Source: Nanoarchaeota archaeon
Lineage (GTDB): Archaea > EX4484-52 > LFW-46
Assembly (NCBI GenBank): GCA_018897155.1
Contig: JAHILE010000045.1
Coordinates: 1-64,000 of the forward strand
Direction of reading: 5' to 3'
DNA: 64,000 nucleotides
Shown here: piece after piece, positions 359-43,606 of the stretch
How positions within the stretch are numbered: position 1 is the first letter of the stretch
Layout: every line of letters begins with the position of its first letter
Program-made: the position numbers and the translations under genes
The notes under the pieces: model-generated
Told to the model about the DNA's origin: nothing
The model's input: only the letters and a program-made list of their open reading frames with translations
Databases searched by the model: none

Positions 359-541
359 TTATTCCCTAACAACCATTATCGGAATGGCATCTTTATTATA
401 TTCCTCGCGCGCAATCTTTAAAGGATCCATTTCCTTTGTCTTTATGAGCGGAGGCGCACCCATTGATAGCTGGAATGCGCGCGCGCCTAGGATGCGCGCG
501 ATTTCAAAACGATTGTAGTGAATTGTTTCTGCTGCCGCCAT
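359..541 (-). CDS. rpoK: DNA-directed RNA polymerase subunit K (Rpb6/omega homologue)
   Basis: This is the small RNA polymerase assembly subunit. The protein is about 60 residues and carries the RpoK/omega signature: RFEIARILGARA, then QLSMGAPPLI, then the conserved D-P-x-x-I-A-R-E-E run and a C-terminal IPIMVVR. Homologues are 55-60 residues, so I start at the ATG at 541 rather than at an in-frame codon 18 residues upstream. The upstream bases form the two-hairpin leader at 541-600. A TATA box near 645-652 predicts transcription from about 622, giving a leader of about 80 nt, unusual in a window where most first genes are leaderless. Confidence 0.93.
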   Translation of the reverse strand: MAAAETIHYNRFEIARILGARAFQLSMGAPPLIKTKEMDPLKIAREEYNKDAIPIMVVRE

Positions 542-600
542 TTTAAACCATCTCTTTATGCATTGGGTTTGAAAGCTTGAAAGCGCAAAACGCACTCAAG
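541..600 (-). promoter_or_regulatory. Two-hairpin start-site leader, rpoK copy
   Basis: On the minus strand hairpin I (576-600) pairs CTTGA with TCAAG and GCG with CGC. It is followed by TTTCAAACC (566-574), which can pair with GGTTTAAAA (541-549), whose last A is the A of the rpoK ATG. The ribosome-binding-like GAGATGG lies against that 3' strand, so stem II would bury the start site. A frame through the element reads K-L-S-N-P-M-H-K-E-M-V and stops 1 nt before the ATG. The same layout occurs before the P0, spt5 and aCPSF1 genes. Confidence 0.7.
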
Positions 601-659
601 TTTTCATGATAATAATCACAGGTTTCTTATATTATGCGGAAAGGTTTATAAATGGGTGA

Positions 660-2174
660 TTAGACGTTTTCTATCAAAGCCTGATTTTTAGGAAATATGT
701 GATTTCCATGATATTTTTGATATACTATTTCAATCACTTTCTTGCTTTGGCCAACATATTTGAGTGGATCAGATATTTCACGTATCACGTTTTCATCAAG
801 CCTGCTCGTTACGTCATCACATCCAAGAAGGATTTCAACAAAAGGCTTTTTTTCAGCTTTTACCTTAGTTGAAAGTTCGCCCATAAGATCGTGTGCTATT
901 GACCTTGGAAGTGGTTTTGAAGTTTTAATTCGGTCTGTTAGATAAGTCATGACTTGGGCAGATGTTACAACACCAAGAGAGCGTTCAACGCGTTCTATGC
1001 TTCGGGGCATGTTCAAATCAATATGGTATACAACATTTGCCAGGTTTCTTATGACTTCGTCACCCCATTTGAACATTATCTCAAGAGTTACTCTATCTGA
1101 TGCAGAACCCGAAAGGTCACGCGCATAAAACATAAGATCAGAGCTAAGTGCAGTCATCATTGCGCCACGCGTATAATTGGCAAACGAAACTGTTTGCTCT
1201 TCTTTTGTGGGGTTTCCACCTTTTTCATCTTTATGCGGCATACCTGCCGAACCCTTTTGTTTCCGTCCTCTATAAACGAAAAGGTTCACGTCATCACCCC
1301 TACCGTTTGCGATGTATGTTGCAAGGTTTGCCATAGTTTCTGCAGTTCTTGCTATTCCATATGCAAAATCGCTTATGAATTCTCTTCCAGGAGTCTGCGC
1401 CGCCGCATCCATGTATTTTAATCCCAGTGCTTCACAGTATGCTTTTTGAAGTTCAATACCATTAACATTGAGTGCAGTTGCTGAATGATGGTTTCCTGTT
1501 GAATCTCCCCACTTGCCAACAAGCGAGTTATTGTAGAAATGCTTAAGAAGGTTAATGTCTGATTGAAGCATTTCGGCGTAATGAGAAAACGGCCGTCCTG
1601 CATATGTGGGAAGCGCATCATATCTATGTGTCTGATCCATATGTGGTATATTGGACCAAGCCATGGATTTTTCAAGAGTTATGTCTCTTAGATTTTCAAG
1701 AGAATCTATAATTATTTCTGTAGCATTTTTAAGCTGCAATGCTTTTGCCGTTTCAGTACTATCTGCGCTTGTTCGAAACTTATTTATGTCCGATGCGGCT
1801 TCAGGACATATCTCCATTACAGCTTCTTCCCACGCATTATCTATGGCAATTACATCATGGCCTATTTCGTCTTCAATATCTATTATTCTCTGTGGGTTTA
1901 TACTTTGCAGATTCGCTGTTTTGATCAATACCGTTGCATGTTCTTGTGGAACTATATTGGGATACAATTCAGAAAGAACTTGGGTTGCTGCCGCTTGCGC
2001 CTTTAAGCAATAGCCAAACGTTGGAACCCGCCCAAAAATGGGTGACATTTCTAACGTTCCATATTTTCCAACAACAAGTATTCCGGGATCTGCTTTTGCA
2101 TCAAGACCCTTCTTCTTTGGAGTCGTTATAATATATGATTTATCGATTTCGTACATATCAGTCACTTTAATCAT
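660..2174 (-). CDS. purB: Adenylosuccinate lyase
   Basis: PurB cleaves SAICAR to AICAR and adenylosuccinate to AMP, releasing fumarate. The 504-residue protein belongs to the fumarase/aspartase superfamily and shows its signature loop GSAGMPHKDEKGGNP about residue 310, followed by ARDLSGSASDRV, plus an upstream histidine region STGNHHSA. The gene follows purC by about 21 nt, so product and substrate enzymes of consecutive purine steps are co-transcribed. The ATG at 2174 is used; an internal ATG six codons later, preceded by GTGACTGAT, is an alternative. Confidence 0.93.
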   Translation of the reverse strand: MIKVTDMYEIDKSYIITTPKKKGLDAKADPGILVVGKYGTLEMSPIFGRVPTFGYCLKAQAAATQVLSELYPNIVPQEHATVLIKTANLQSINPQRIIDIEDEIGHDVIAIDNAWEEAVMEICPEAASDINKFRTSADSTETAKALQLKNATEIIIDSLENLRDITLEKSMAWSNIPHMDQTHRYDALPTYAGRPFSHYAEMLQSDINLLKHFYNNSLVGKWGDSTGNHHSATALNVNGIELQKAYCEALGLKYMDAAAQTPGREFISDFAYGIARTAETMANLATYIANGRGDDVNLFVYRGRKQKGSAGMPHKDEKGGNPTKEEQTVSFANYTRGAMMTALSSDLMFYARDLSGSASDRVTLEIMFKWGDEVIRNLANVVYHIDLNMPRSIERVERSLGVVTSAQVMTYLTDRIKTSKPLPRSIAHDLMGELSTKVKAEKKPFVEILLGCDDVTSRLDENVIREISDPLKYVGQSKKVIEIVYQKYHGNHIFPKNQALIENV

Positions 2175-2195
2175 TCCGTCTGTTCTTTAATGAAT

Positions 2196-3260
2196 CTAAT
2201 ATGCTCGGGATTTTAGTCCCAAGGTACCAACAATCAATTGAATGTCTTCAACAAGCGCTTTATCACGTGGCCTTATGTCTGGTTCGAATTTTTTGCCAGT
2301 AAGTTTTTGAATTCCCATTATATATCTTACCGCAATCAGAATCTGTTGTTCCGGAGTGTATTTTTTATCTCCTTCGGACATACCTCTTGCGAATTCTTTT
2401 GAATAGGATACCGGATCTCTTCCTTCGTCTATTGCTTTGAGATAATCCTCTAAAGACCAATATCTTGAGGAATCAAAAGTGAATAACTCATCTTGTGAAA
2501 CAATTTTGCCTTTTCTATTGCGACCATTTTCGGTTTTAGTATCTGCAAGTATTATGCCTTTGTCATAAAGATATCCGAAGACAATTCCATATGCCATTTT
2601 GGAATTACTGCTTATCTCAGTGTATTCGTTAGGTGTGCATATGTTATTATCAAAAAGATATTGTGGAGATACAGACATATCGGTTTTACCTTTGGTTGAA
2701 GGGGTGCCCATGAGATATGGAAGTTTTTGATTAACGATAAGATTTTCAGATAATGGGTGTCCGCAAAATTCTTTTTCACCTTTAACAAAATATGCGTGAT
2801 ATAATGAAGTCTCAGTACTGCTTCTTGCAAGATATAATCTCAGAACGTTTTCGAAAGGTATTGTATCAAGATTTTCTGCAGCGATTACTGTCGCATTCAT
2901 GACAAGCCCGGGTATCTCAAACTGTGAGGTTCCTATTGCGGGTTCGACCATTTTTCTCATGAAGTTGTGATTTGTTGCCAGTACTTGATCTTTGAAAGGT
3001 ATATCCCCTCGTCCTTTATCATGTGTTGAGATACGCGGCGTTCTAACCATTATCCTTATAGGCTTTCCATCATCTGATAAAAGCGGTTTTTCATCGTTTG
3101 TTTGATATATCGAATCAGAAACTTTTCCAGGACGTACAATACACTTATTTAATTCCGGTACGCGCTTTATTATGTCTTCGGTCGGTGTTAATATGCCAAT
3201 TTCACTCAGATAGTTCTTAACAATCTCTCCTGCTTCAGATTCATCCAGAAATCTTGTCAT
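2196..3260 (-). CDS. purC: Phosphoribosylaminoimidazole-succinocarboxamide synthase
   Basis: PurC joins CAIR and aspartate with ATP to make SAICAR, the substrate of the adjacent PurB. Motifs visible are VRTPRISTHDKGRGDIPFKD (where bacterial enzymes have R-x-S-x-x-D), ILADTKTENG and DELFTFDSSRYW. At about 354 residues it is longer than the bacterial enzyme and nearer the size of eukaryotic forms. I start at the ATG at 3260, preceded by GGGGAT; ATG 3284 and TTG 3290 are in frame upstream. A TATA-like ATTTAAAA (3331-3338) predicts transcription from about 3310. No other purine gene is in the window. Confidence 0.92.
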   Translation of the reverse strand: MTRFLDESEAGEIVKNYLSEIGILTPTEDIIKRVPELNKCIVRPGKVSDSIYQTNDEKPLLSDDGKPIRIMVRTPRISTHDKGRGDIPFKDQVLATNHNFMRKMVEPAIGTSQFEIPGLVMNATVIAAENLDTIPFENVLRLYLARSSTETSLYHAYFVKGEKEFCGHPLSENLIVNQKLPYLMGTPSTKGKTDMSVSPQYLFDNNICTPNEYTEISSNSKMAYGIVFGYLYDKGIILADTKTENGRNRKGKIVSQDELFTFDSSRYWSLEDYLKAIDEGRDPVSYSKEFARGMSEGDKKYTPEQQILIAVRYIMGIQKLTGKKFEPDIRPRDKALVEDIQLIVGTLGLKSRAY

Positions 3261-3352
3261 GATATATCCCCGAAATAGACTCATCACCAAAACTAAACAA
3301 AACTTTGTTGTTTTGTTTTAGTCCTCAAACATTTAAAAACCCTTTTAGAAAT

Positions 3353-4141
3353 CTACAAAAGCCTTGCAAAAACATCCCATCCAAACATTATGAGCAGGAT
3401 AAGCGCGCCTACCACCTCTATTACTCGCCATTTTTTTGTTCCTTCAAGCACATCTGTTATTGTCAGGCACATCCATAGAAGAAAAACATATCCGCTCATT
3501 AGCGAAAATATCGAAAATTCCGGATGGCTCCAGACCCCGATAAGTTCCCCCATCATTTCGTCAAAAACCGTAAAAAGCGCGACAAAATAAGCGAGCCTTA
3601 TTTCACTCCACGATTTGAAAAGGGCGAGCGATACGGCAAACCATACTAATATTTCTATAGGCCTCAACGAAAAATCCAGATACAGCCAGTCAATAGCCAT
3701 GATGGCTGGCGTTAAAATAAGAAATCCGTAGGTAAGTTTTGGAAACCATACTTTTTTTTCATACGCTTCTTCAAAGACTTTTCCGAAATTATATGATGCC
3801 CAGAATATTGCGCCGTAGCCTGGAAGAATCCAAAGCGGAACGCCGCCGAAAATACCGCCGAGGTATGTGAAGTACCCTGCATTGACTCCGATAAGTTCGT
3901 GTAAGTATCCTACAACTGCGGCAAAAATAAGAAATACTTTGCCTTTTTTATCGCTTTCGCGCCAGAAAAAAATCCAAAGCAGCGATAAAATCAGCGTTGC
4001 TGTGAATTCGTCTTCAGTTTCCCGATAAAATATCAGGGTGCCTATGATTGCAGACACTACGAATATGAAAAAATCTTTTGCATCATGGAGCAGCGCGTCT
4101 TTTCTGCGTTTCAGATTGTCTTTTAGCATGAGAAAATCCAT
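3353..4141 (-). CDS. Polytopic membrane protein of unknown function
   Basis: The 262-residue protein has about eight hydrophobic segments separated by short charged loops, with a basic N-terminus (LKRRKDALLHD). Conserved-looking patches are HELIGVNAGYFTYLGG and VPLWILPGYGAIFW, which faintly recall carotenoid-hydratase/DUF-type membrane proteins. That resemblance is too weak for a name. GTGATATC sits directly before the ATG. The gene lies 18 nt downstream of the SpoIIM-like gene in the same direction, so the two probably form an operon. Confidence 0.75.
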   Translation of the reverse strand: MDFLMLKDNLKRRKDALLHDAKDFFIFVVSAIIGTLIFYRETEDEFTATLILSLLWIFFWRESDKKGKVFLIFAAVVGYLHELIGVNAGYFTYLGGIFGGVPLWILPGYGAIFWASYNFGKVFEEAYEKKVWFPKLTYGFLILTPAIMAIDWLYLDFSLRPIEILVWFAVSLALFKSWSEIRLAYFVALFTVFDEMMGELIGVWSHPEFSIFSLMSGYVFLLWMCLTITDVLEGTKKWRVIEVVGALILLIMFGWDVFARLL

Positions 4142-4159
4142 GATATCACATTAAGCAAA

Positions 4160-4999
4160 TCAAAGCGCAGGAGTTATCCAGACTTCTATGAACGCCGCAA
4201 TTATTAATAATGCGACGGAAAGGCCGAAAAGCGCTGCGGCATCTTTTATTATCCGCGTGTCTTGGTGGCGCTTTATGATTCCGATTGACAAAATACCCCC
4301 CGCAATTCCGGCAACAAAATACGCAGCTATTTCAGGAACGCCGTGCAGAGCAATTGAAATGAGGCCTGCCGGAAGGGAAATAAGGTAGCCATATACTGCG
4401 GAAAGGGGGTGGCTAATCTCTGACGCTGCTGCGCGCGCCATTCCTCCGACAAAAACAGCTATTATCGACGCATTCCATGCAAGTATGAATATGGCGCCTG
4501 CTCCGTAAAAGAATGACAGTATGAACGAAACAAATGCCACGGAGAAATTATTCAGGAATATCTGCATAAATCCTTTTCCTTCAAATGTCGCAAAGCCGGT
4601 TTTTATATTTTCTCCGCGGATGCTTGAAAGCGTTTTTATCTGCTCACTGAACGCGTCTTTTACAAAATCCGCTGGAAGGACGGTATACCAGAATGACGCA
4701 GCAACGATTATCCCGAGAAACAAAAATGTGTATATGTCAAAAGCCTTTTTGTGTATCTTAAGAAACCCCAAATCCAGGTGCTCATAATCTTCATCAAGCG
4801 TTTCTTCATTATTGAGCACATTATATATCATTGGAAACGATGCAAGCGTCACAAGAAACAGGAAGGTTGTCGAGATCTGTGATGGAAAAATATATGCTGC
4901 CAAAAAAAGGGAAACTGTGGTTGCCATCACGCCGTATATAAACACATGCCACGGCTTTTTTTCAGCATCATCAGAAGTTTCGATATTCTCAAGAACCAT
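4160..4999 (-). CDS. SpoIIM-family (DUF95) membrane protein
   Basis: The 279-residue protein begins with a short acidic cytoplasmic segment and two membrane helices, followed by a soluble loop and the SpoIIM core: FLNNFSVAFVSFILS, then GAGAIFILAWNAS, then LHGVPEIAAYFVAGIAGG, then a last helix ending IEVWITP. Members of this archaeal branch are multi-pass inner-membrane proteins of unknown role; the sporulation name is historical. It heads a two-gene unit with the downstream membrane protein. Confidence 0.82.
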   Translation of the reverse strand: MVLENIETSDDAEKKPWHVFIYGVMATTVSLFLAAYIFPSQISTTFLFLVTLASFPMIYNVLNNEETLDEDYEHLDLGFLKIHKKAFDIYTFLFLGIIVAASFWYTVLPADFVKDAFSEQIKTLSSIRGENIKTGFATFEGKGFMQIFLNNFSVAFVSFILSFFYGAGAIFILAWNASIIAVFVGGMARAAASEISHPLSAVYGYLISLPAGLISIALHGVPEIAAYFVAGIAGGILSIGIIKRHQDTRIIKDAAALFGLSVALLIIAAFIEVWITPAL

Positions 5000-5056
5000 T
5001 TATATACTTGTTGAAATGCGTATTTATAGATTGATTCATTTCAGAGATTAATTCTT

Positions 5057-5734
5057 TTACTTCGGAACTGTTTTTGCGCATTCGATGATATAAACGCCCG
5101 CATCTCTTTTCCATTCCTTATGCGCCTCAATAAGTTCTATTTTTTTCGAGAATAAAGGGCAATCAAGCACAAATGTCTCGAACTCTCCGCCTTCACCAGC
5201 AATATTTATTTTGTTTTTCTTTGATATTTCGATTAACTCGTTCACTGCTTTTTTATCTAGTTTTCTTCCAAGCCAGCTTTTGTCAAGGCCTTCTGCCGCA
5301 ACTGCTGTGATTACAACTTCGAATTTATTTTCAAGAAGCAGGTCCCAGTATTTTACGAGGTCAATATTCCACAAAGGCGCCTCAGATTTAAGCCCGAGTT
5401 TTTTCGCAATTGCATCGATGCGCTCCTTCTGGTAGTTTGAGTAAAGCGCGCCAGTTACGATACCGTCAACTTTTCCCTTTACCGTTGCGATGAGATTTTC
5501 AAGGTCCTTTAGTTCTTTTTCCTTTTCACCTTTTGTTTTTCCAGTAATTTGTGGGATGTTCATAAGATCTGCCTGCATCGCAGTGAGATGGACGTTTGGG
5601 TGGTGGAACATATAGCTGTCAGAACGCGCAGGCATCATTGTAAGAATATATGTGATTTCATGGCCTTTTTGCTTCATTGCATATATTGCGAAAATGGAAT
5701 CCTTTCCTCCGGAAATGAGTGCCGCGAGCTTCAT
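5057..5734 (-). CDS. dph6: Diphthine-ammonia ligase (Dph6-type ATP pyrophosphatase)
   Basis: This enzyme performs the ATP-dependent amidation that completes diphthamide on elongation factor 2. The 225-residue protein opens with the PP-loop SGGKDS at residues 8-13 and carries the family-specific GEGGEFETFVLDCPLF near 180-195. This separates it from tRNA-thiolating PP-loop enzymes. It starts 2 nt after the stop of a ubiquitin-like protein gene, so the two are translationally linked. The pairing suggests a functional connection, but the sequence does not show what it is. Confidence 0.9.
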   Translation of the reverse strand: MKLAALISGGKDSIFAIYAMKQKGHEITYILTMMPARSDSYMFHHPNVHLTAMQADLMNIPQITGKTKGEKEKELKDLENLIATVKGKVDGIVTGALYSNYQKERIDAIAKKLGLKSEAPLWNIDLVKYWDLLLENKFEVVITAVAAEGLDKSWLGRKLDKKAVNELIEISKKNKINIAGEGGEFETFVLDCPLFSKKIELIEAHKEWKRDAGVYIIECAKTVPK

Positions 5735-5736
5735 AA

Positions 5737-5937
5737 TTATCCGCCCGATACAACCTGAATAATCTCTATTTTGTCGTTGTTATTAAGCTCTTCGTTGTCC
5801 GGAATTATTTCTCCGCCGCGCTTTATCAGGACCATTTCCGGATTAATTTTGAGAATCTGAAGTACATCCAGCCCGATTGCGCCGTATCTTAGCGCGAGCT
5901 TCTTTTTCACTTTTCCGTATGTGACAAAAACGTGCAT
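5737..5937 (-). CDS. Ubiquitin-like sulfur-carrier/SAMP-type protein ending in Gly-Gly
   Basis: With the start at ATG 5937 the protein has 66 residues, typical of the MoaD/ThiS/SAMP beta-grasp family. It ends in QVVSGG, the diglycine tail that an E1-like enzyme adenylates. The stretch MVLIKRGGEIIPDNEELNNND matches the second half of a beta-grasp fold. The start is fixed by a TATA box at 5961-5968 centred about 27 nt upstream, making the mRNA leaderless; an upstream in-frame start at 6003 would lie behind the promoter. It may act in sulfur transfer or protein tagging. Confidence 0.85.
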   Translation of the reverse strand: MHVFVTYGKVKKKLALRYGAIGLDVLQILKINPEMVLIKRGGEIIPDNEELNNNDKIEIIQVVSGG

Positions 5938-14537: not shown

Positions 14538-16511
14538 ATGCTCATCGGCGAAGTTTTCGGAAGCACAGGAACAAAGACTTTTAATTTCCGCGCGGAAAAG
14601 GAAGTGCGCAAACTTGATTTTGTAGTTGTTGAAGGCGAGAACAAGACCTGGGTCCTATCGCAGGTTGAAAATATTGAAAGCAGGCCTGACGGCAAGAACA
14701 TAGCATTTGCAAAAGCCATCGGATACAGGGAAGACGGAATCCTGAAAGTGCCTATGACGCCGATAAAGTCGAATGCAAGAGTCTATTCTGCAGACGCGGG
14801 CATAATTCAGGACACGCTTAAGCTTGACAAAAACGGGCTTTATCTCGGTTGCCTTGATGCGAACAAGGAAGTGCCGGTTTATATCGATCCGACAGATCTC
14901 ATCTCGCGGCATGTCGCAGTCCTTGCGGCAACAGGTTCCGGGAAATCATATACGGTTGCAGTTATTCTTGAAGAGCTTCTTGAAAAGAACATACCTATTG
15001 TTATAATAGATCCCCACGGAGAGCACACCTCTTTAGGGGTTGCAAACGATAATGCAGAAGAAATCGAGAAGGCGCAGAAATTCAACATTCTCTCAAAAAA
15101 CTATCTTGTTGTCGAATACAGCCCGGACACAAATGTCAATTCAGGTGCGCAGCAAATATCCTTTTCCGACAAGAATCTTGAAGCATCTGAAATACTTCAT
15201 CTTCTTCCGACAAAGCCGTCGTCCTCGCAGATAGGTGTGCTTTACAGCGCGATAAAGGAACTGAAAGAAATGGGCAAGCCGTACGAGCTAAAGGATATAA
15301 TCAAGGCAGTTGAAGACAACCAGAGCGCATCAAAATGGGCTGTTATAAACATGCTTGAAGTTGTCCGGGGCACAGGGCTTTTCTCGTCAAAGCCGACAAA
15401 TATCCGCGAGCTGGTCAAAGCAGGGCAGGCATCGATAATAAATCTGCGTGGCATAACACAGGAGATACAGACAGTTGTCGCATATAAAATTATCGAGAAG
15501 CTTTTTGAGGAACGTAAAGTTGGCCGAGTTCCGCCGATGTTTTTGGTGGTTGAAGAGGCGCATAATTTCTGCCCTGAAAAAGAAGTTCGGGCATCCTCAA
15601 AAATCATACGCACTGTTGCATCTGAAGGGAGAAAATTCGGCTTCGGCTTGTGCGTTATTTCGCAGAGGCCTGCTCGGGTTGACAAGAACGTGCTTTCACA
15701 GTGCAATACCCAGATTGTCCTTCGCATGACAAATCCGAATGACTTGAAAGCGGTTTCTTATGCAGAGGGGCTTACAAGTGGAATTGAGAAAGAGATAAAA
15801 AATCTAAATCCCGGAACAGCTTTGATTTTGGGCCGCGAATTTCCTATATTTGTGAATATCCGAATCCGAAGAACAAAGCACGGAGGCGTCACAGTCAATA
15901 TCAGCGAGCCTGTAAAAGAGGTTACTGAACTTTTAGCATTCCGGAATTACGAGAAAAAATACATCGAGAAAAAATTCGGGTCCGTTCATACGATATATTA
16001 TCCGTGCTGGCGCATATACGGCGAGAAGACCTACCTTATAGAAGCGGTGCGTGGCAAAGTGATTTTCGAGGATTCTGATGCGACAAAAGAGTGTGACATA
16101 GAGCTTAACGATGATCATGCGCTGATTCTGAGCGAAATGAAATTCAACAGGACTTTGCAGGAGCTTCTTGAGCGGACAAAATTGACTGAAGACGATCTTG
16201 TCAAGGCGCTGAAAGAATTGCGCGATAAAGGCTATGTAAATGAAAAAGAGGAGAATGAGAAATTCGTTTATGAAAAAACAGAAAAAAGCGTTTTTCGCGA
16301 CTTTGCAATAGAGCCTGCAACAATTGAAAAAGACAATAATTCAGAGACGCTGAAATTCGAGTTCACAAAAGAGGATGCTCTGAAGCGCGCGAAGCTTTTG
16401 TTTGGCGCGGTTGATAACATCGAGCCGGTCTATTATACATATTATCTTGACGAAAACCAGAAGTTCTTGATTGACGGCGTGACCGGGATAAAGAAAGAAA
16501 CCGGGAATTAG
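14538..16511 (+). CDS. HerA/DUF87-type hexameric ATPase
   Basis: HerA-family ATPases translocate DNA, typically with the NurA nuclease in end resection. The 657-residue protein has an N-terminal barrel (HAS) domain, Walker A AATGSGKSYT near residue 135, IDPHGEHTSLG, Walker B FLVVEEAHNFCP, and the FGLCVISQRPARVD sensor stretch with conserved Arg. The C-terminal 180 residues add a winged-helix-like region (LSEMKFNRTLQELLERTKLTEDDL), so it may be a paralogue rather than classical HerA. No nurA is adjacent. A TATA box centred near 14511 makes it leaderless. Confidence 0.85.
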   Translation: MLIGEVFGSTGTKTFNFRAEKEVRKLDFVVVEGENKTWVLSQVENIESRPDGKNIAFAKAIGYREDGILKVPMTPIKSNARVYSADAGIIQDTLKLDKNGLYLGCLDANKEVPVYIDPTDLISRHVAVLAATGSGKSYTVAVILEELLEKNIPIVIIDPHGEHTSLGVANDNAEEIEKAQKFNILSKNYLVVEYSPDTNVNSGAQQISFSDKNLEASEILHLLPTKPSSSQIGVLYSAIKELKEMGKPYELKDIIKAVEDNQSASKWAVINMLEVVRGTGLFSSKPTNIRELVKAGQASIINLRGITQEIQTVVAYKIIEKLFEERKVGRVPPMFLVVEEAHNFCPEKEVRASSKIIRTVASEGRKFGFGLCVISQRPARVDKNVLSQCNTQIVLRMTNPNDLKAVSYAEGLTSGIEKEIKNLNPGTALILGREFPIFVNIRIRRTKHGGVTVNISEPVKEVTELLAFRNYEKKYIEKKFGSVHTIYYPCWRIYGEKTYLIEAVRGKVIFEDSDATKECDIELNDDHALILSEMKFNRTLQELLERTKLTEDDLVKALKELRDKGYVNEKEENEKFVYEKTEKSVFRDFAIEPATIEKDNNSETLKFEFTKEDALKRAKLLFGAVDNIEPVYYTYYLDENQKFLIDGVTGIKKETGN

Positions 16512-16520
16512 AAAAACATA

Positions 16521-16701
16521 TGGACACGGCGCGATTTTCATCAGTTCTGGGTAGTTTTGCGCCTCGACGAAGTCGAGGTCGCTGGTTTTTCTCTTTATAC
16601 CCAGATTTGTTTTTCTCTTCTTCAAAAGAGAAAGAAACTGGATTTGAACGCGCGGCCTCTGCGTTGCGAACGCAGCGATCTACCAGCTGATCTACGTGCC
16701 C
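16521..16701 (-). tRNA. tRNA-Ala(CGC) with a 108-nt intron at position 59/60 in the T-loop
   Basis: Exon 1 (16701-16643) gives acceptor GGGCACG, a GATC/GATC D-stem, anticodon stem CTGCG/CGCAG with loop TTCGCAA (anticodon CGC), T-stem GCGCG and T-loop TTCAAA. Exon 2 (16534-16521) supplies T, CGCGC, the acceptor strand CGTGTCC and discriminator A; CCA is not encoded. The acceptor contains G3:U70, the alanine identity pair. Around the intron (16642-16535) is a canonical bulge-helix-bulge: helix TTCA/TGAA with 3-nt AAT bulges, each cut after the second base. A TATA-like element near 16729 predicts a start at about 16703. Confidence 0.88.
16535..16642 (-). other. Structured tRNA intron
   Basis: The 108-nt intron of tRNA-Ala contains two perfect stems: an 8-bp pair between 16598-16605 and 16546-16553 (TCTGGGTA with TACCCAGA on the minus strand), enclosing a hairpin at 16562-16578 (CCTCGAC, loop TTC, GTCGAGG). 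Near its 3' end CAGT/ACTG extends the splice-site helix. CTGATGA near the 3' end resembles a box C, but no matching box D arrangement is clear. Confidence 0.75.
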
Positions 16702-23684: not shown

Positions 23685-24530
23685 TTACTGAATCTTTGCA
23701 GTACTTTTCACCGAAATCGCCTGCAGATTTGCCTTTGCAAGCAGGTGCGGAATTATTTCCTTTTCAAGGATTGTTGCGTTTATGCCGAGGTTCAGTGCAT
23801 TTCTATAAGCTTCAGATAGTTTCAGAAGCACAACGTCTTTTGTGAGGTAGTTTGCATTATATGCAAGATTGAAAGCATTCCTATATGCCTGCACAATCTG
23901 ATTAACATAAGCGGCTTCATCAACTGCAAGCAAATCTTTTCCATAGACAATGCCGCCTTCATATATTCCAGGCACATTCAGGCATATTTCCATTGGCTTT
24001 ATATTTAGTTTTCCAAGAATTCCTGCAGCGGCTTCGTTTATGACTTCACCCTGTTTTACTAGTGTTTTTGTTTCTTTGATCACTATATTAGGTCCCTGTA
24101 TTGCTGCTTTTATCCCTGCTTTTTGAAATTCTGCGATTGCAGGTCCTGGAGGCAGGTTTGTCGGGCCTTCTTGAACTATGATGTCTATCGGCGCAATATC
24201 TCCTGCTTTTGCCGATGCTTCTGATTTGTTCTTTTCGATTTTCTTGTATAGCTTGAATGGATTGTCTGTGCTTACAATCAATGCAGGAATATGAACTTTG
24301 AGTTTTGTGAGTTCGCTGATTTTGTCTTTTTTCTTCTGCGATGCTTCAATTGCCCTGTAAATGACGCTTTTCTTTGTGACGATTATTTCGGCTGAACCGC
24401 GCAATCCCTTTTTTATGTTTTGAAGCATCGAAGAAGGAAGCTTGCTTATGTCGACAATCCCGACAGTTGCATTTGATTCAATAAGCTTTTCAAGATCTTT
24501 TACTTTTTCAGTTTTCCATTTTTGAACCAT
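23685..24530 (-). CDS. rplP0: Ribosomal protein P0 (L10) without the acidic C-terminal tail
   Basis: The 281-residue protein matches archaeal P0: an rRNA-binding N-terminus (KDLEKLIESNATVGIVDIS), the insertion domain with GPTNLPPGP, and a helical spine for P1 dimers. It ends STAKIQ, without the charged hinge and L-G-A-L-F-G tail found in most archaeal P0 proteins of about 310-340 residues. The bases after the stop do not code for the missing tail in any frame, so it is not a recent frameshift. The start lies in a two-hairpin leader. Confidence 0.93.
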   Translation of the reverse strand: MVQKWKTEKVKDLEKLIESNATVGIVDISKLPSSMLQNIKKGLRGSAEIIVTKKSVIYRAIEASQKKKDKISELTKLKVHIPALIVSTDNPFKLYKKIEKNKSEASAKAGDIAPIDIIVQEGPTNLPPGPAIAEFQKAGIKAAIQGPNIVIKETKTLVKQGEVINEAAAGILGKLNIKPMEICLNVPGIYEGGIVYGKDLLAVDEAAYVNQIVQAYRNAFNLAYNANYLTKDVVLLKLSEAYRNALNLGINATILEKEIIPHLLAKANLQAISVKSTAKIQ

Positions 24531-24589
24531 TTTTAATCATCTCTTTTTACATTGGATTAAAAAGCTTGAAAATCTCGAAGATTTTCAAG
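24530..24589 (-). promoter_or_regulatory. Two-hairpin start-site leader, P0 copy
   Basis: Hairpin I is a perfect 11-bp stem (24565-24589; CTTGAAAATCT, loop TCG). Stem II pairs TTTTTAATC (24555-24563) with GATTAAAAA (24530-24538), whose last A is the A of the P0 ATG. A mini-ORF of 16 codons begins just after the L1 stop behind GAGGTA and reads MFILKIFEIFKLFNPM, running through hairpin I and ending within the loop of stem II. The layout matches the rpoK, spt5 and aCPSF1 leaders. Confidence 0.72.
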
Positions 24590-26015: not shown

Positions 26016-26327
26016 TTAAGCTGTTGCGTTCATGGTTACATGGCAAATTTTTCGTACATAGGGATCGTATGTTGTTGGATTAACTAAACAAAAATCTTTT
26101 CCTTCCAAATCAGCTACAACCTTGTGTGTAAAGTCATTGTAAACCGCAGGTACTTCAATCATCATGTGTTCGCTCGTATTTCCTTTTAGCATATCTTCAA
26201 GGCGTGCAGCACTGATATTATCACCCAATTTCTTAAGGCAATATAGGATTTCTGGAATTGAGGTGGGATATCTTTCAAGTCTTATTTTATTGGAACCACT
26301 TTTCAATCTAATAAAGTCGACAGTCAT
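26016..26327 (-). CDS. Hypothetical protein coupled to spt5
   Basis: The 103-residue protein begins MTVDFIRLKSGSNKIRLER and contains two short predicted helices and several strands. Its ATG overlaps the spt5 stop (ATGA), so it is translated together with Spt5 and upstream of L11, where most archaea have no gene. No family is recognised; the position implies a ribosome- or transcription-linked role. Confidence 0.68.
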   Translation of the reverse strand: MTVDFIRLKSGSNKIRLERYPTSIPEILYCLKKLGDNISAARLEDMLKGNTSEHMMIEVPAVYNDFTHKVVADLEGKDFCLVNPTTYDPYVRKICHVTMNATA

Positions 26328-26755
26328 TTAATCACTTTCAATAAATCTAATTTAATTGTAATCGGTATCGGAACCGCGCTTTCGATGAGCTCGATTCTTG
26401 CTTCGCGTTTGTCTTCATCGATTCGCACAATCTTTGCTTTTTCGTGCTTGAAAGGGCCACCGATTACTTCGACAATATCATTTACTTTCATTGTGATTTC
26501 TTTTGTTGCGACTTTCATGAATGTTTCAAGCTGCTCTATTGCAACCGGCTTGTTTATCAGGCCGCGAACATGAGGTACGCCTCGAAGGACATCTGTGATG
26601 CCTTCTTCAGAGCCTTCTATGAAAAGATAGCCTTTCAATTCTGCAGGCGCAAATATTGATTTTATGTCAACCGGCTTCATATGGGCTTTTGTGGTCAGTG
26701 TGTCCAGTACAGTTCTTTCACGTCCTACAGTTGTCCTTATTGTGAGTATTGTCAT
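26324..26755 (-). CDS. spt5: Transcription elongation factor Spt5 (NusG)
   Basis: The 143-residue protein has an NGN domain (ILTIRTTVGRERTVLDTL, AELKGYLFIEG, VPHVRGLI) and a C-terminal KOW domain (VNDIVEVIGGPFKHEKAKIVRID). It binds the RNA polymerase clamp to keep it processive and links to the ribosome. The ATG lies in tandem two-hairpin leaders. SecE is encoded upstream as in most archaeal genomes. Confidence 0.95.
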   Translation of the reverse strand: MTILTIRTTVGRERTVLDTLTTKAHMKPVDIKSIFAPAELKGYLFIEGSEEGITDVLRGVPHVRGLINKPVAIEQLETFMKVATKEITMKVNDIVEVIGGPFKHEKAKIVRIDEDKREARIELIESAVPIPITIKLDLLKVIK

Positions 26756-26802
26756 TTTTAATCATTCTCCAATTGCATTGGATTAAAAAGCTTGGTACAA
26801 GC
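26755..26802 (-). promoter_or_regulatory. Two-hairpin start-site leader, spt5 proximal copy
   Basis: Hairpin I is GCTTG-TAC-CAAGC (26790-26802). Stem II pairs TTTTTAATC (26781-26789) with GATTAAAAA (26755-26763); its last A starts the spt5 ATG. GGAGAATG, a ribosome binding site, lies in the loop beside stem II. A mini-ORF beginning at the end of the distal copy reads MACTKLFNPMQLEND and stops 2 nt before the spt5 ATG. Confidence 0.72.
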
Positions 26803-26805
26803 CAT

Positions 26806-26892
26806 GATTTTTAATCATTCTCCATTTGACTGGATTAAAATCATCTCGTTTGCTGTTACAAACTTGAAGCTTTTGAGCTTCGCTCAAAAAGC
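26806..26892 (-). promoter_or_regulatory. Two-hairpin leader, spt5 distal copy
   Basis: GATTTTAATC (26833-26842) pairs with GATTAAAAATC (26806-26816) around a loop containing GGAGAATG, the same as in the proximal copy, but here the element precedes the ATG of a 15-codon mini-ORF instead of spt5. Upstream are hairpins GTTTG/CAAAC (26848-26863) and an imperfect stem with TTC-type loop at 26869-26892. The pair of copies looks like a tandem duplication that kept its structure. Confidence 0.6.
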
Positions 26893-27099: not shown

Positions 27100-27250
27100 T
27101 CACTTATAACATTTTTTTGAGAGAAATAGTTGTTAAACTAAATCCCTCCTGCCGAAGCAGTCATGAAAATCTTTACGCATATTGTTCAGATTTTCAAGCT
27201 TTTCAAAGTTGAAGCGAGCCTCAACTATTGAAAATTGTTGCGGGTCTTAT
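27100..27250 (-). promoter_or_regulatory. Long structured 5' leader of the secE-spt5-ribosomal cluster
   Basis: A TATA box in ATTTATAAATC (about 27269-27279) predicts transcription from about 27250, giving a leader of about 150 nt. It can form GTTGA/TCAAC, TGAAAATC/GATTTTCA (an 8-bp stem around a 17-base loop) and CTGC-TTCG-GCAG, a classic stable UUCG tetraloop, at 27150-27161. A mini-ORF reads MRKDFHDCFGRRDLV. Such a leader is a likely site for feedback by a ribosomal protein, but no known L1 site is clear. Confidence 0.5.
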
Positions 27251-38790: not shown

Positions 38791-38812
38791 TGCCTGCAAA
38801 GGAGGGTATATT

Positions 38813-39490
38813 ATGATAAAAGCCATAATATTCGACTGGGATGATGTTATTGTAGCTGGCTCGACAAAAGGCTATATTAACTGCTACCATGAAACACTGT
38901 CAAGGCTTGGCGTCTTTCTTGAAGCAGAAGAAGAAAAGCGAAGGATTTTTGAGAACTGGGGGAAGGCTCCAAAAGCCGAACTGAGCGGTTTGCTAAAAGA
39001 ACATCCCGGAAAGCTTGACGAAGCATACAGATTATATGACGGCATTCTACTTAATTCAGATACGTTTGTCAACTGCGTAAAACCAATAAATGGAGTGAAC
39101 ATACTGCTAGAAAATCTGGCAAAAAAATATGCTCTCGCGATTGCTACCGGAATTCATCCTGTTTTGCTGAAGAAAATCATGGACAAATTCAACACTCCGA
39201 AAGTTTTTTCAAAAATAATTTCTGCATATGATATCGAAGAGAAAAATCAGAAGCCTTCGCCTTATTCTCTTAATGAGATAATGGCGTTTCTTAAAGTAAA
39301 ATCCGAAGAGACGATTTATGTCGGCGACGCAAAGAACGATGTTTTGATGGCAAGAAACGCGCGTATAGAACCTATTGTTGTGCTTACAGGCCATTTGTCA
39401 AAGTCGGAAGCTGAAGTCTTGAAAGTAAAGCACATAATTCCGGACGTAACCGAAATTGAAGAAGTTCTTGAATCAATTGGCAGCAAGTGA
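38813..39490 (+). CDS. HAD-superfamily phosphatase
   Basis: The 225-residue protein has the four HAD motifs: IIFDWDDV (nucleophile Asp 8), an A-T-G threonine motif, a KPSPYSL lysine motif and VGDAKNDVLMA. The cap helices match the phosphoglycolate-phosphatase-like group. The strong ribosome binding site GGAGG before the ATG is one of the few full Shine-Dalgarno matches here. It follows M20 by 22 bases. Confidence 0.87.
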   Translation: MIKAIIFDWDDVIVAGSTKGYINCYHETLSRLGVFLEAEEEKRRIFENWGKAPKAELSGLLKEHPGKLDEAYRLYDGILLNSDTFVNCVKPINGVNILLENLAKKYALAIATGIHPVLLKKIMDKFNTPKVFSKIISAYDIEEKNQKPSPYSLNEIMAFLKVKSEETIYVGDAKNDVLMARNARIEPIVVLTGHLSKSEAEVLKVKHIIPDVTEIEEVLESIGSK

Positions 39491-39494
39491 ACTT

Positions 39495-40109
39495 TTATTT
39501 CACTTCAACTTTCCTGACTTCAACGCTTCTTATCGGGAATATCTTTGCCGCCGCTTCATGTATTACTCGCGTCAGTTTTTCGTTGTTCATAGTCATGACC
39601 GCTTCATCAAGCGGCCTTCCCGCAAGCATTTCGCTCGAGGTTTTTATAGTGAGCGCGCGAAGGTGTTTTCTTACTGTAGTATTTGCTTTTTTTGCTGTGA
39701 TTATTGTCATTTTCAGGCGCAGTTTCTTGTCCTTTAGCGTGATGTCCTGAATTGAGTCGACGCGTGAGCTCCATCTTCGAATAAGGCGTGCCAATGCATC
39801 TTTTAGAAGTTCCTGACCGGAGTATTCTGTTTTTGCCTTTTTGCCATCAATTCCTGTAATTTTTAGGCTTGCTGTTGTGTGCATTTGCTTGTAATTCTTT
39901 GTAAGCTCAGATAATGAGACTTTTACAGTCCTTCCAATAATATTAGAATCCTTCAAAGAAGGAATTTCTGCAATTACTTCTTCGCCAAAAACACTTGGAG
40001 ACGACACCATATACCATGATTTTTTTGACCATGTGTCCTTTCCAGCCTTTGGCTTTGCTGCTGTATCTGCTTTTTTCGCTTCTCCGGGCTGTTGCATTAT
40101 TTCAACCAT
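39495..40109 (-). CDS. rps3ae: Ribosomal protein eS1 (S3Ae)
   Basis: The 204-residue protein has the S3Ae pattern: WSKKSWYMVSSPSVFGEEVI, IGRTVKVSLSELTKN, LIRRWSSRVDSI and a conserved C-terminus IFPIRSVEVRKVEV. It belongs to the small subunit near the mRNA exit. GTGATTTC immediately precedes the ATG. It lies between an HAD gene and the GAN nuclease, an order seen in several archaea. Confidence 0.95.
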   Translation of the reverse strand: MVEIMQQPGEAKKADTAAKPKAGKDTWSKKSWYMVSSPSVFGEEVIAEIPSLKDSNIIGRTVKVSLSELTKNYKQMHTTASLKITGIDGKKAKTEYSGQELLKDALARLIRRWSSRVDSIQDITLKDKKLRLKMTIITAKKANTTVRKHLRALTIKTSSEMLAGRPLDEAVMTMNNEKLTRVIHEAAAKIFPIRSVEVRKVEVK

Positions 40110-40192
40110 GAAATCACATATTTAGTACATATTACCTTACAATAACCATACATTAATGCGGAAGATTTATTAAGGTTATGGAAAGCCATACG

Positions 40193-41608
40193 CTAAGGCT
40201 CCACATTAACTTCCGCTAAATCAACAACATCTGTTTCATTTTCCCATTTTTTTATAAGAAGCGGATCTATAAGCTGTATGAACTTTGCTTCAGTTCCAAG
40301 AGGTATTTTGGCTCCGGCAGCGTTTGTATGGCCTCCACCTTCCCCGCCAAGCTCTTTCGAGGCTTGTAGAATCGCCTTTCCAAGATTTGCTTCGTTGGAG
40401 TTTATTAGTATCCTTCCTGAAACTTTAACACCGTTGTCAGAATTCGCAAATCCGATGGCAACATTGGCTTTAAGTATTGAGCGCATTGCAATTGAAACTG
40501 ACGTGCCTATCATGTTGTCGGAAATATTGTTTCCAGCAATCACATAAACTGCGTTATCTGTTTTGACAAAGAGATCTTTATTTGTTTTTATCCATTCAAG
40601 GTACACAGCGATTTTCTTTCTGTACGCACCCATTATAGTGTCTGCAGAATCAATATGCCCAAGGCATAATTTCATACCCTCTACAGGTTTTTCTATCCTT
40701 CCGCAGGCGTTAAGTATTGTTGTAAATTCACGTATTTCGTAGTTGTTATGAAGCTTGTAGACATTTCCTATTAATGTTCCGGGTTTGACTCCTGCATGCG
40801 TTGCCTCTATCAGAAGCGCGCTTGCAAGCTTTTTTTCATCATCCTTTGAAAGATCCGCAAGCCGCAGCCATGCGCCTGCTTTGTCTTTGATAGGGATGCC
40901 GTAGTTGTTAAGAAATTGCAATGCTCCGGATTGATCTCCCGATATGTTTGGAATAAAAGGATCTGTCGAGTATTCAATCGCTTTAATTAGCGGCCTCGTA
41001 TATCTTCCGAAAAGCCGCAAGCCTTTATCGACTTTTAATTTTCCTGCAAGCTCAGCATCTTTTACAAACATCTCATTTACGCCTTTGTAATTTCCGTTGA
41101 CTTTTTGCATGTCGCCGGCAGCGCCTATCACTGCGAGATCCACAAGCTTCCATGCCTTTGAAGTGAGCATCCGGCATACCAGATAGGCCACTCCAGCTCC
41201 TGAGATTTCATCTTTTCCGTCGATTCCTGTCAGATGGGGGTTTACGTGGATTAGTCCGTCCCACGAAAGATCAACTGGCTGATGATGGTCTGCGACAACG
41301 ATTTTTTTCCCGGGAAAGAATTCTTTTATTGCGTCAAGCTGACCGCTTCCAAGATCTGTAAAAATCCACAAGTCTGCAGAATCCTTGTCTTTTGACAGAT
41401 CCTGTGCAACATCGCGCTCAAGCTGCTTTACAAAGTCAATTTCAAAATTTTTTTTCAGCGCGTTTAGCGTTTCATGCATTATGGCTCCGGCGCATATTCC
41501 GTCGGCATCAAAATGAGTCACGACGCGTATGTGGCCTTTTTCTGATTTGATAACGTCTGCTGCGCGCGAAGCTAATGCGAGAAGAGAATTAAGGTTGTCT
41601 GTGTTCAT
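40193..41608 (-). CDS. DHH-family exonuclease (RecJ/GAN-like)
   Basis: The 471-residue protein carries the DHH phosphoesterase motifs: VVTHFDADGICA, WIFTDLGSGQ, VVADHHQP and AVIGAAGDMQ, and a C-terminal DHHA1 domain ending GGEGGGHTNAAGA. In Thermococcus the related GAN binds GINS and degrades DNA 5' to 3'; other archaeal relatives act on RNA. Both are possible here. Its rps3ae neighbour is a conserved archaeal association. Confidence 0.9.
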   Translation of the reverse strand: MNTDNLNSLLALASRAADVIKSEKGHIRVVTHFDADGICAGAIMHETLNALKKNFEIDFVKQLERDVAQDLSKDKDSADLWIFTDLGSGQLDAIKEFFPGKKIVVADHHQPVDLSWDGLIHVNPHLTGIDGKDEISGAGVAYLVCRMLTSKAWKLVDLAVIGAAGDMQKVNGNYKGVNEMFVKDAELAGKLKVDKGLRLFGRYTRPLIKAIEYSTDPFIPNISGDQSGALQFLNNYGIPIKDKAGAWLRLADLSKDDEKKLASALLIEATHAGVKPGTLIGNVYKLHNNYEIREFTTILNACGRIEKPVEGMKLCLGHIDSADTIMGAYRKKIAVYLEWIKTNKDLFVKTDNAVYVIAGNNISDNMIGTSVSIAMRSILKANVAIGFANSDNGVKVSGRILINSNEANLGKAILQASKELGGEGGGHTNAAGAKIPLGTEAKFIQLIDPLLIKKWENETDVVDLAEVNVEP

Positions 41609-41659
41609 AGATGACTTATTGCGCGCAAAGTATTAAAAATTAAATGCGCTATTTTGTTT

Positions 41660-41995
41660 ATGGAATCTGATCGTTCTGATGCTGAAAAAATCAGGATATT
41701 CGATAAATGCAATGCCGGCTTTCTGGATTTTGTATATGGCGGCCCTTCCCAATGCTTGTTTGTATGGAAAGGCGACCTGTCAAAAGCAATCAGCCTGTAT
41801 TCTTGCATTCAAAGTGTGATGAAAGAATTTGAAATCGGGAACATCCATTTTGGAAAATTGTCCCATTGCGATGCTGCATGGGGCAATTGCGCATATATTA
41901 TGATGGACGATGTTTTGAGCCCGCAGCAAAAATATAAAATCATAAAGGGCATAGAATCAAAAGGATATGCAACCGCTGTTGAGCCGCTTTTCTGA
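41660..41995 (+). CDS. Hypothetical protein
   Basis: The 111-residue protein (from ATG 41660) begins MESDRSDAEKIRIFD and contains four cysteines in GGPSQCLF, SLYSCIQ, LSHCDAAWGNC. It is divergent from the GAN gene. The family is not recognised. Confidence 0.6.
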   Translation: MESDRSDAEKIRIFDKCNAGFLDFVYGGPSQCLFVWKGDLSKAISLYSCIQSVMKEFEIGNIHFGKLSHCDAAWGNCAYIMMDDVLSPQQKYKIIKGIESKGYATAVEPLF

Positions 41996-42043
41996 ATTTA
42001 TGGTACCATATGCTTATATTCCCGACCGCATCATAGATTATTA

Positions 42044-42415
42044 ATGTGGCGCGGCGTAATTATCGAGGAAAGTTTGAATGATAAATCGCTTCTGAACTTA
42101 GCGAAAATTGTTGAAACAAAAAAGTCGACATTGGAAGGCGAGAAAAAAGCAGGAACTATGACATTTCACAAAATCGAGCTGTTTGATGCAGATAAAGAAA
42201 AGTTTTTGAATCTGGCGCGCACATCAATAAAAGACAAATTCTATTTGCATATCTGTAGCGGTGGCGTAATGGTTGTTGTTTACAAAAACAGTATGTTTGA
42301 ATTCTCGAAAAATGATTGTGGCAAAATAAATGAAGCGCGCGACTACGGCGCAGAGCACGGTATTTTAAGAGAGCAGATGGATTTTGAAGTGCTGGTTGAT
42401 GCGCCTTGGGCTTAA
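42044..42415 (+). CDS. Hypothetical archaeal protein
   Basis: The 123-residue protein starts MWRGVIIEESL, contains a helix, several strands (FYLHICSGGVMVVVYKN) and EHGILREQMDFEVLVD. Similar short proteins with an N-terminal M-W-x-G-V-I-I-E-E-S-L occur in archaeal genomes; their role is unknown to me. A TATA box TTATATT (42014-42020) is centred 27 nt before the ATG, so the gene is leaderless. Confidence 0.7.
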   Translation: MWRGVIIEESLNDKSLLNLAKIVETKKSTLEGEKKAGTMTFHKIELFDADKEKFLNLARTSIKDKFYLHICSGGVMVVVYKNSMFEFSKNDCGKINEARDYGAEHGILREQMDFEVLVDAPWA

Positions 42416-42506
42416 AATAAGGCAAAGCATAGCGAAAAATTATCGGCAATTCTCGAATGTGCGGAATCAAATAACCTTTATAAAGTTTAATTATCCAGTA
42501 AACGAT

Positions 42507-43256
42507 ATGCTTAATTCTGAGTTGATTACTGATGCAAAAAACAGATGCTCACAAACTGGATTTTTAAGAACCGGATTTTCGGTGAAACTTTCAGGTGCAG
42601 AAGGTGGCCATGAAAATGGAAAGCTGAAAACCGGAACAACAACTGTCGGGCTTGTCTGCAAGGACGGGATTGTCTTGGCAACAGACAATAAAGCTACAAT
42701 GGGACATCTGATTGCGTCAAAGACGGCAAAGAAAATACTTGAAGTGTCGCCTAAAATGGCGGTAACGATTGCAGGGGATGTTGGAGATGCGCAGGCGGTT
42801 GTAAGGCTCCTTAGCGCGGAACTCCGATTATATACTCTTTCAGAAAAAGTGCTTACTGTAAAAGCAGCAGCAACGCTTCTTGGAAATATGTTAAGAGATG
42901 CATACAAGTCATGGATGCCGGAAATGATACAGCTCATACTTGGCGGCGCAGATGACAGGGGCGTAATGCTTTATTCAATAACTGCGGACGGCGCAGTTAT
43001 GATTGAGGACGAGTATACTTTCAGCGGTTCAGGGTCGGTAATTGCAATAGGTGTGCTTGAAGATGCATACAAAAAAGACATGCCTGTTGATGAGGGGATA
43101 AAACTTTCGGTAAGGGCGATAAAAGCGGCGCGTGAGCGCGACGTATTCACTGGCGGAAAGGATATAAACGTTGTTACAATAACGCAAAAGGACGGCGTGA
43201 AATGGGTTCCGCAGGATAAAATAAATTTGATTATAAAGGAAACGGACAAAAAGTAA
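42507..43256 (+). CDS. psmB: Proteasome subunit beta
   Basis: The start at ATG 42507 is fixed by TTTATAAA (42478-42485) 25 nt upstream; a start 41 codons earlier would lie before the promoter. The 249-residue precursor has a propeptide of about 43 residues ending KLKTG, then the mature N-terminus TTTVGLVCKDG with catalytic Thr1, Asp in ATDNKATMG, and Lys in SKTAKKI. The propeptide is longer than in many archaea (often 6-10 residues). No alpha subunit is nearby. Confidence 0.93.
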   Translation: MLNSELITDAKNRCSQTGFLRTGFSVKLSGAEGGHENGKLKTGTTTVGLVCKDGIVLATDNKATMGHLIASKTAKKILEVSPKMAVTIAGDVGDAQAVVRLLSAELRLYTLSEKVLTVKAAATLLGNMLRDAYKSWMPEMIQLILGGADDRGVMLYSITADGAVMIEDEYTFSGSGSVIAIGVLEDAYKKDMPVDEGIKLSVRAIKAARERDVFTGGKDINVVTITQKDGVKWVPQDKINLIIKETDKK

Positions 43257-43487
43257 ATCAAGGATTTTGCAAAAAATTAGATATTTCAGAAAAGGAGTTC
43301 TAAACCCAAACATATTTTTAGCGAGAATTGAATTGATGCAGAAATGGATAGTATTGCTCAAAATGATAACATAATAATTGATAGTCAATTGGCGGTTTTT
43401 TTGCAAGTTATGCTATATTTATGGCATTAGTTTCTAATGCAGAAATAGCCGGCAACAAATAAGTCTATTAACTGGTGAAACACGTCA
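43257..43487. other. Gap between psmB and the aCPSF1 leader
   Basis: About 230 bases are AT-rich with no convincing gene. GCTATATTTATG near 43410-43422 could be the TATA box for aCPSF1, which would give a long leader of about 160 nt containing both hairpin elements. Confidence 0.45.
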
Positions 43488-43552
43488 TGAAAGCTTGCAC
43501 ATAACGCGCTTTCAAGCTTTTGAACCCAAGGAAAATGAGGAATGGTCCAAAA
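43488..43552 (+). promoter_or_regulatory. Two-hairpin leader, aCPSF1 distal copy
   Basis: Hairpin I pairs TGAAAGC (43488-43494) with GCTTTCA (43508-43514). Stem II pairs TTTTGAACC (43518-43526) with GGTCCAAAA (43544-43552), eight of nine pairs. Its sequence differs from the other copies on both strands, yet pairing is kept, which is covariation. GAGGAATGG lies beside stem II. The element precedes a 10-codon mini-ORF (MLRIKLSNPN) that runs into the proximal copy. Confidence 0.68.
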
Positions 43553-43553
43553 T

Positions 43554-43606
43554 CTTGATGCTTCGCATCAAGCTTTCAAACCCAAATTAAATGAGATGGT
43601 TTAAAA
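43554..43606 (+). promoter_or_regulatory. Two-hairpin start-site leader, aCPSF1 proximal copy
   Basis: Hairpin I is CTTGATGC-TTC-GCATCAAG (43554-43572), a perfect 8-bp stem. Stem II pairs TTTCAAACC (43574-43582) with GGTTTAAAA (43598-43606), whose last A starts the aCPSF1 ATG. GAGATGG overlaps the 3' strand. From AAGCTTTC to the ATG it is nearly identical to the rpoK copy, although the two genes are 43 kb apart. Confidence 0.72.

Follow-up and report, generated by a model that had tools for sequence, protein, structure and literature searches.

Several families of short repeats and one structured leader resemble, each in part, the element described here. Rickettsia palindromic elements (RPEs; Ogata et al. 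2000, 2002), reviewed in PMC10969869, are dispersed palindromes that occupy many unrelated loci, with several copies lying in frame inside unrelated proteins. Repetitive extragenic palindromes and bacterial interspersed mosaic elements (REP/BIME), which are mobilized by Y1/RAYT transposases, are hairpins that stand in tandem and inverted arrangements at high copy number, and the TAACTGA repeats of marine Beggiatoaceae are distributed genome-wide, are concentrated directly upstream of start codons and have been proposed to act in translation (PMC4679880). The archaeal L7Ae k-turn leader (PMC6298567) is a structured 5′ leader near the start codon of an informational gene. Each of these systems shares traits with a two-hairpin repeat present in a 64,000-nucleotide stretch of a Nanoarchaeota archaeon genome (assembly GCA_018897155.1, contig JAHILE010000045.1, positions 1 to 64,000 of the forward strand; here referred to as the window), in the rest of that genome and in its congener LFW-46. 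No report of such repeats was found in the literature searched on the lineage, on archaeal palindromic elements and on mobile elements bearing a Shine-Dalgarno (SD) sequence.

In our view, this repeat is probably a mobile palindrome of a DPANN genus, of which a subclass docked at start codons has been co-opted as a portable translation-initiation module. The unit would insert between the native SD and the AUG and so displace the native SD; the subclass with a GGAG, GAGG or GAGAT loop ends exactly at the A of the start codon. The element would then present its own SD in the loop of its second stem (stem II) and place the AUG at the foot of that helix, and translation would initiate from this loop SD. 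Most copies lie outside start codons, and a few have been retained in frame in proteins. What makes the start codons special is the SD-like loop, the exact AUG register and the choice of genes, and it is for this reason that co-option of a mobile repeat is favored.

The copies are a dispersed two-hairpin palindrome family and not an element confined to a few leaders. In all copies read, a variable hairpin module that starts with TC and ends with GC is followed by TTT-stem II-AAA, with modules of the types TCATG..CAAGC, TCATCTCG..CGAAGC, TCCTTTC..AAGGC and TCCGTTCG..CTCGGC, in either orientation. Units measure ~42 to 84 nucleotides (nt) and occur singly, in tandem or nested. The core pattern AAGCTTTYNAAYCC, which lies wholly outside the 3′ arm, the SD and the start codon, has 23 sites in the 1.43-Mb genome, compared with 0 for a reversed control. 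The covariance-model scan suggested in the preliminary description recovered many further copies, both here and in one congener. Their stems covary, and those docked at starts show a strong bias toward informational genes. A model of stem II (R1), whose columns include the TG after the stem and slightly favor docked matches, gave 106 matches at E ≤ 10 in the same genome, of which ~94 were read; under tighter filtering, 91 matches remained at E ≤ 0.1. In LFW-46, it gave 148 at E ≤ 0.1. Other families of the order yielded few or no matches, except for family f7, with ~2 to 30 per genome. A model built from start-docked copies only (R2) gave 56 and 133 matches in the two species but no more than 3 in each of the other genomes, which makes the docked class an expansion at the genus level. 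LFW-46, described as a member of p__EX4484-52, a sister lineage of Nanohaloarchaeota within DPANN (PMC8561730), is the only congener in the collection searched; its assembly is 89% complete, part of its copies were fetched, and the two species share 70 to 85% DNA identity. Copy numbers are minimal, because five contigs of the genome under study (C2, C21, C25, C26 and C46) end inside one and the same unit (AACCCGATAACGTTTGTGAATGGTTG), at which the repeat breaks the assembly. Family f7 and a small number of others have shorter related modules of the form TCATG...CAAGCTTTT...AAAA, and at three f7 loci (L060, L062 and L081) two-hairpin modules lie within the loop of a larger inverted repeat, e.g., GTCAAAGACATA...TATGTCTTTG.

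It had been proposed that pairing rather than sequence is conserved in stem II, and this was borne out. An alignment of 20 copies (A2), all drawn from the AAGCTTTYNAAYCC set and hence assembled without selection for complementarity, gave a covariation of 0.255, compared with 0.095 ± 0.018 after shuffling (0/500), and slid registers reached at most 0.119. Stem II (TTTYNAAYC with GRTTNRAAA) was paired in 94.4% of the cells of this alignment; one pair occurs as UA, GC, CG and AU, and another occurs as CG and UA in near-equal numbers. For docked copies, covariation was 0.340, versus 0.086 when shuffled. Perfect stems were present in 38 of 62 copies at starts (6.4 expected by shuffling) and in 44 of 109 away from genes (9.9 expected), with the arms in these counts, and in those of docking, placed partly by complementarity. 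The rows of a further alignment (A3) were chosen for having 7 or more of 9 pairs, so that absolute pairing is overstated there, with the pattern of compensatory changes unaffected. Stem II thus covaries at a distance from genes as well, which makes pairing a trait of the repeat family and not of the leader RNA as such. The stem is AU-rich and weak in folding energy, and since most single leaders fold only modestly when isolated (z of −3.0 for P0 and −0.25 to −1.8 for the others), the case for pairing is one of covariation and not of energy.

Docking, defined as the last base of stem II being the A of an ATG that opens an open reading frame (ORF) of at least 45 codons, was seen for 70 of the 213 nonredundant copies of the two species; ORF starts were assigned mechanically, and a handful of the 70 are chance or in-ORF cases. 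Within the unbiased AAGCTTTYNAAYCC set, the proportion was ~10 of 22 distinct copies. The view of the element as a leader of gene starts only therefore does not hold, as about two-thirds of the copies lie off starts: some between genes, some in arrays of tandem or nested units and some within ORFs, in frame. The loops of the docked copies are distinctive: an SD-like motif is present in 51 of 57, versus 17 of 99 other long-loop copies (Fisher 1.5e-19; the motif list, GGAG, GAGG, AGGA, GAGAT, GGGG and GAAG, was compiled after the loops had been viewed), and undocked loops tend to GTGAAT or GCGAAT. The duplex energy of the loop with the 16S rRNA anti-SD also differs between docked and other copies (p 7e-5), and the 3′ end of the 16S rRNA carries the canonical anti-SD CTGGATCACCTCC. 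With an SD complementary to this 3′ end placed at the start codon, the docked unit has the makeup of a translation-initiation leader, and we infer that ribosomes use it as such. By direct reading, several docked genes would, with the unit removed, have a native SD (GTGAT or GAGGT) at a normal spacing to the ATG; insertion of a unit between that SD and the AUG, after which the unit took over as the source of the SD, would produce this arrangement. The suggestion that mRNAs of this genome are mostly leaderless is not established, as 32 other gene starts of the window show a modest SD signal (mean of −4.0 versus −3.0 kcal/mol for shuffled sequence) alongside the canonical 16S anti-SD.

The genes at which units are docked are biased toward information processing. 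By Pfam assignment, those of the genome under study include the ribosomal proteins S11, P0, L4, S5, S27e and L15; RpoK, RpoF, Spt5, FttA and an RNase PH-family exosome subunit; and EF-1 beta, an SSB-like protein, topoisomerase VI-A, two HerA-like ATPases (one at C3:40449), Sec61 beta, prefoldin, AtpF, a PRC-barrel protein and a HAD protein. In LFW-46, Pfam assigns RpoB, TFB, RpoE, Spt4, L30, S12, S14, S19, S28e, EF-2, SerRS, Rpp30, RadA, topoisomerase VI-B, NDK, an exchanger and others, and sequence reading or orthology adds L3, S5, S11 and SecE. Ribosomal-protein genes account for 14 docked genes out of ~67, against ~2.8 expected (P of ~5e-7), under an assumed background of 62 ribosomal-protein genes per ~1,500 genes. 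The earlier statement that all targets are transcription or translation factors thus stands as a strong bias and not as a rule, as AtpF, an Na+/H+ exchanger, a HAD hydrolase, PRC-barrel proteins and NDK are docked as well. PADLOC returned no match for six docked proteins of no assigned family.

All six two-hairpin copies previously claimed for the window, one each at rpoK and P0 and two each at spt5 and aCPSF1, were found at the positions and in the orientations first given. The rpoK gene (Rpb6/RpoK; 362 to 541, minus strand; PF01192, E of 2.3e-10) is preceded by a hairpin I read directly at 576 to 600 (CTTGAG...CTTTCAAG; minus strand, leader folded) and by a stem II at 541 to 574 (minus strand; R1, 57.2 bits) that consists of the 5′ arm TTTCAAACC at 574 to 566, GAGAT in the loop and the 3′ arm GGTTTAAAA at 549 to 541, the final A of which is the A of the rpoK start codon. 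At rplP0 (L10/P0; 23688 to 24530, minus strand; PF00466 and PF17777), hairpin I (24565 to 24589, minus strand) was likewise read directly, the whole leader giving the fold score noted above, and stem II (24530 to 24563, minus strand), a covariance model match, pairs TTTTTAATC with GATTAAAAA, holds AAGAGAT in its loop and has the A of the start codon as its last base. The spt5 gene (26327 to 26755, minus strand; PF03439 and PF00467) carries a docked proximal copy at 26755 to 26806 (minus strand; covariance model match), with hairpin I at 26806 to 26791, stem II at 26789 to 26755 and GGAG in the loop, and in tandem with it a distal unit at 26809 to 26892 (minus strand; 25.3 bits), in which a hairpin module of inverted orientation (26892 to 26841) is joined to a stem II of TTTTAATC and GATTAAAA (26840 to 26809). 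For aCPSF1/FttA (43606 to 45483, plus strand; PF17214 KH_TffA and PF10996 Beta-Casp), the ATG at 43606 was taken as the start in place of the longer ORF start at 43591. Its distal unit (43485 to 43552, plus strand; 61.7 bits) comprises hairpin I at 43485 to 43516 and stem II arms TTTTGAACC at 43518 to 43526 and GGTCCAAAA at 43544 to 43552. The proximal unit (43553 to 43606, plus strand; direct reading and covariance model match) has hairpin I at 43554 to 43572 and the same arms as rpoK, TTTCAAACC at 43574 to 43582 and GGTTTAAAA at 43598 to 43606, and is docked on the ATG at 43606. Stem II ends at the A of the start codon, as had been stated, in the downstream copy of each gene but not in the upstream aCPSF1 and distal spt5 units, which run into the next unit (...AAAAT followed by C), with no start codon there. 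One further copy, undocked, antisense to the secE-spt5 operon and absent from the preliminary description, lies at 27189 to 27237 (plus strand; R1, 24.7 bits, E of 0.006). At gathering scores, Rfam matched only a tRNA in the window and no curated family at the leaders.

Comparison of the two species shows that units come and go. The docked unit of spt5 is missing from the LFW-46 orthologue, which has a plain GGTGG leader (CAGGTGGCTCACAATG), whereas secE, just upstream of spt5, has a docked unit in LFW-46 and none here. P0 and the gene at C41:12130 are docked here, with no unit at the orthologous LFW-46 starts, and a copy of LFW-46 (L155) is absent from the matching place in the window, 16510 to 16521. 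At the P0 start, the window reads ATC, the unit and then ATGGTTCAAAAATGG, compared with GGTGATTATTATCGTTCAAAAATGG in LFW-46 (L200, near 1480), where no ATG is left; a GTG a few codons upstream may serve as the start there, as if the unit had been lost along with the ATG. About 10 starts are docked in both species, those of HerA, S11, the gene at C4:8661, S5, a HerA-like protein, an MPEIVTYK protein, L3, a PRC protein, EF-1 beta and aCPSF1, and at these, stem II nearly always differs between the species and is still largely paired. At aCPSF1, for instance, the LFW-46 unit is docked at the same place with a different paired stem; the aCPSF1 leaders of two genomes of another family have no unit. 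In LFW-46, an array that is 95 to 100% identical over 126 to 157 nt precedes four unrelated start codons (L127, L131, L144 and L146), with mosaic left parts, which suggests recent spread or gene conversion of whole leader cassettes. At C17:10259, C58:2137 and C46:37076, and at L138 of the congener, a complete unit splits the loop of another immediately before ATGG. Junctions have A or G at the left and nearly always T at the right, away from genes too.

Copies also lie in frame inside genes for UvrC (C15:20636), IleS (C55:15807), a Fic protein (C27:661), a dicluster ferredoxin (C3:27703), a radical SAM protein (C27:10221) and GatB (C35:13423) of the genome under study (loci L028, L121, L045, L002, L012 and L093, respectively). 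The UvrC insert of 108 nt is made up of two units (66 and 42 nt) and the IleS insert of 51 nt is made up of one, and both are absent from the LFW-46 orthologues. The lengths of all seven in-ORF units are divisible by 3, whereas free units with lengths of 0, 1 and 2 modulo 3 number 11, 8 and 4 among docked copies and 17, 5 and 13 among the others. Many undocked copies have a common open frame, (D)FQAFxPxxxxEWxK. A distinct LFW-46 subfamily ending in ...AATGATTCAAAGTGA (L165, L159, L175, L181, L182 and L178) has stops in this frame, as if placed at C termini (FQAFEPDDTCK*), and rpiB (L187:394-930) has an N-terminal extension, MQAQYGKIMQTQKIMKINDFQAFQSLASL, that resembles a translated unit fused upstream of the normal start.

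With its nested units, near-identical arrays, presence and absence between orthologues and in-frame inserts, the family apparently behaves like a mobile repeat, and its spread would be due to transposition. Several observations weigh against this reading. None of the Y1_Tnp loci (three here and one in the congener) has copies at its ends, so that a link to a transposase was not found, and no target-site duplication or terminal inverted repeat, the marks of a miniature inverted-repeat transposable element (MITE), was demonstrated beyond the A/G^T junctions; at the empty IleS and UvrC sites, which differ by substitutions, no clear duplication was seen. The near-identical arrays could have arisen by gene conversion among copies already present, and shared ancestry or selection fits the ~10 starts with a unit in both species as well as reinsertion does. 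In addition, the spacing of ~11 nt between loop SD and AUG is longer than usual unless stem II forms. Inspection of the transposase loci led us to discard IS200/IS605 ends as the source of the repeat, since they have no ends in common with it; the L187 copies that lie 0.4 to 1.5 kb from a Y1_Tnp gene are those of rpiB and one other gene. Another possibility, raised by docking at ATGAAA genes (C29:5425 and C46:17165), was that the native target sequence had been copied in inverted form to give the 5′ arm of stem II; it is not supported generally, because at IleS and spt5 the insert brings in both arms.

A stand-alone riboswitch or protein leader was rejected as the whole story, as most copies are undocked. 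A shared cis-regulatory RNA, recognized as a two-hairpin leader by a protein or small RNA that couples the translation of informational genes to growth, with the other copies as decayed forms or by-products, would account for the strong functional bias in both species, though mostly different genes are docked in each, for the pairing retained at ~10 orthologous starts while stem II changes on both sides at most of them, and for the restriction of the loop motif class to docked copies. We nevertheless regard it as unlikely, given that membership turns over between congeners (spt5, P0 and secE), that noninformational genes are docked as well, that hairpin I is interchangeable in sequence, orientation and type, that covariation of stem II extends to copies away from genes and that the leaders match no Rfam family. 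It is quite unlikely, too, that the repeat is a purely selfish palindrome without function, found at starts through an A^TG(G) insertion preference and survivorship where insertion between SD and AUG is tolerated. Such a preference agrees with right junctions that are nearly always A^T off genes, with nested insertions before ATGG and with the abundance of copies between genes and even inside proteins, but the SD-like loop is found almost only in docked copies, an essential gene could hardly do without its SD, and the bias toward ribosomal and RNA polymerase genes would be left unexplained. An element acting at the DNA level, with the inverted repeats as a transcription factor site, promoter or terminator and the RNA fold incidental, is highly improbable: although palindromes could be operators and hairpin I followed by CTTTT resembles, by direct reading, a terminator with its T-run, the exact start-codon register and the loop SD make sense on mRNA, and the sequence of stem II is freely exchanged as long as pairing holds, unlike that of a sequence-specific operator.

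Beyond co-option of a mobile repeat at start codons, coordinated regulation through the docked units is possible. We put forward only tentatively the wider proposal that a mobile element, by inserting exactly at start codons, became the working 5′ leader of many transcription and translation genes, replaced their native SDs with one presented in a covarying hairpin loop and rewired a growth regulon whose membership changes from one sister species to the other. The contribution usually ascribed to mobile repeats is that of promoters or terminators. Here, units with a ribosome-binding motif of their own and a stem that stays paired as its sequence changes are docked at the start codons of the most essential genes; if the co-option proposed here is true, this would be a route from selfish palindromes to shared translation leaders. 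The in-frame copies would add DPANN archaea to the hosts of protein-coding palindromes, of which Rickettsia provides the best-known cases. At this level of DNA identity, gains, losses and compensatory changes can be read off a comparison of the two species.

The likeness to RPEs is one of behavior; compared with RPEs, the units are shorter and built of two hairpins, the host is a DPANN archaeon and there is a large start-docked subclass with SD-like loops. In contrast to REP/BIME, no Y1 transposase is flanked by the repeats here and no conserved tetranucleotide has been shown at the foot of the hairpin. The TAACTGA elements, direct repeats of 7 nt, have little SD character and follow no pattern of gene function, whereas the present family has covarying hairpins, an SD and an informational bias. 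Finally, the L7Ae leader binds the product of its own gene, while here a single, probably mobile family with no protein ligand or k-turn identified would serve dozens of genes.

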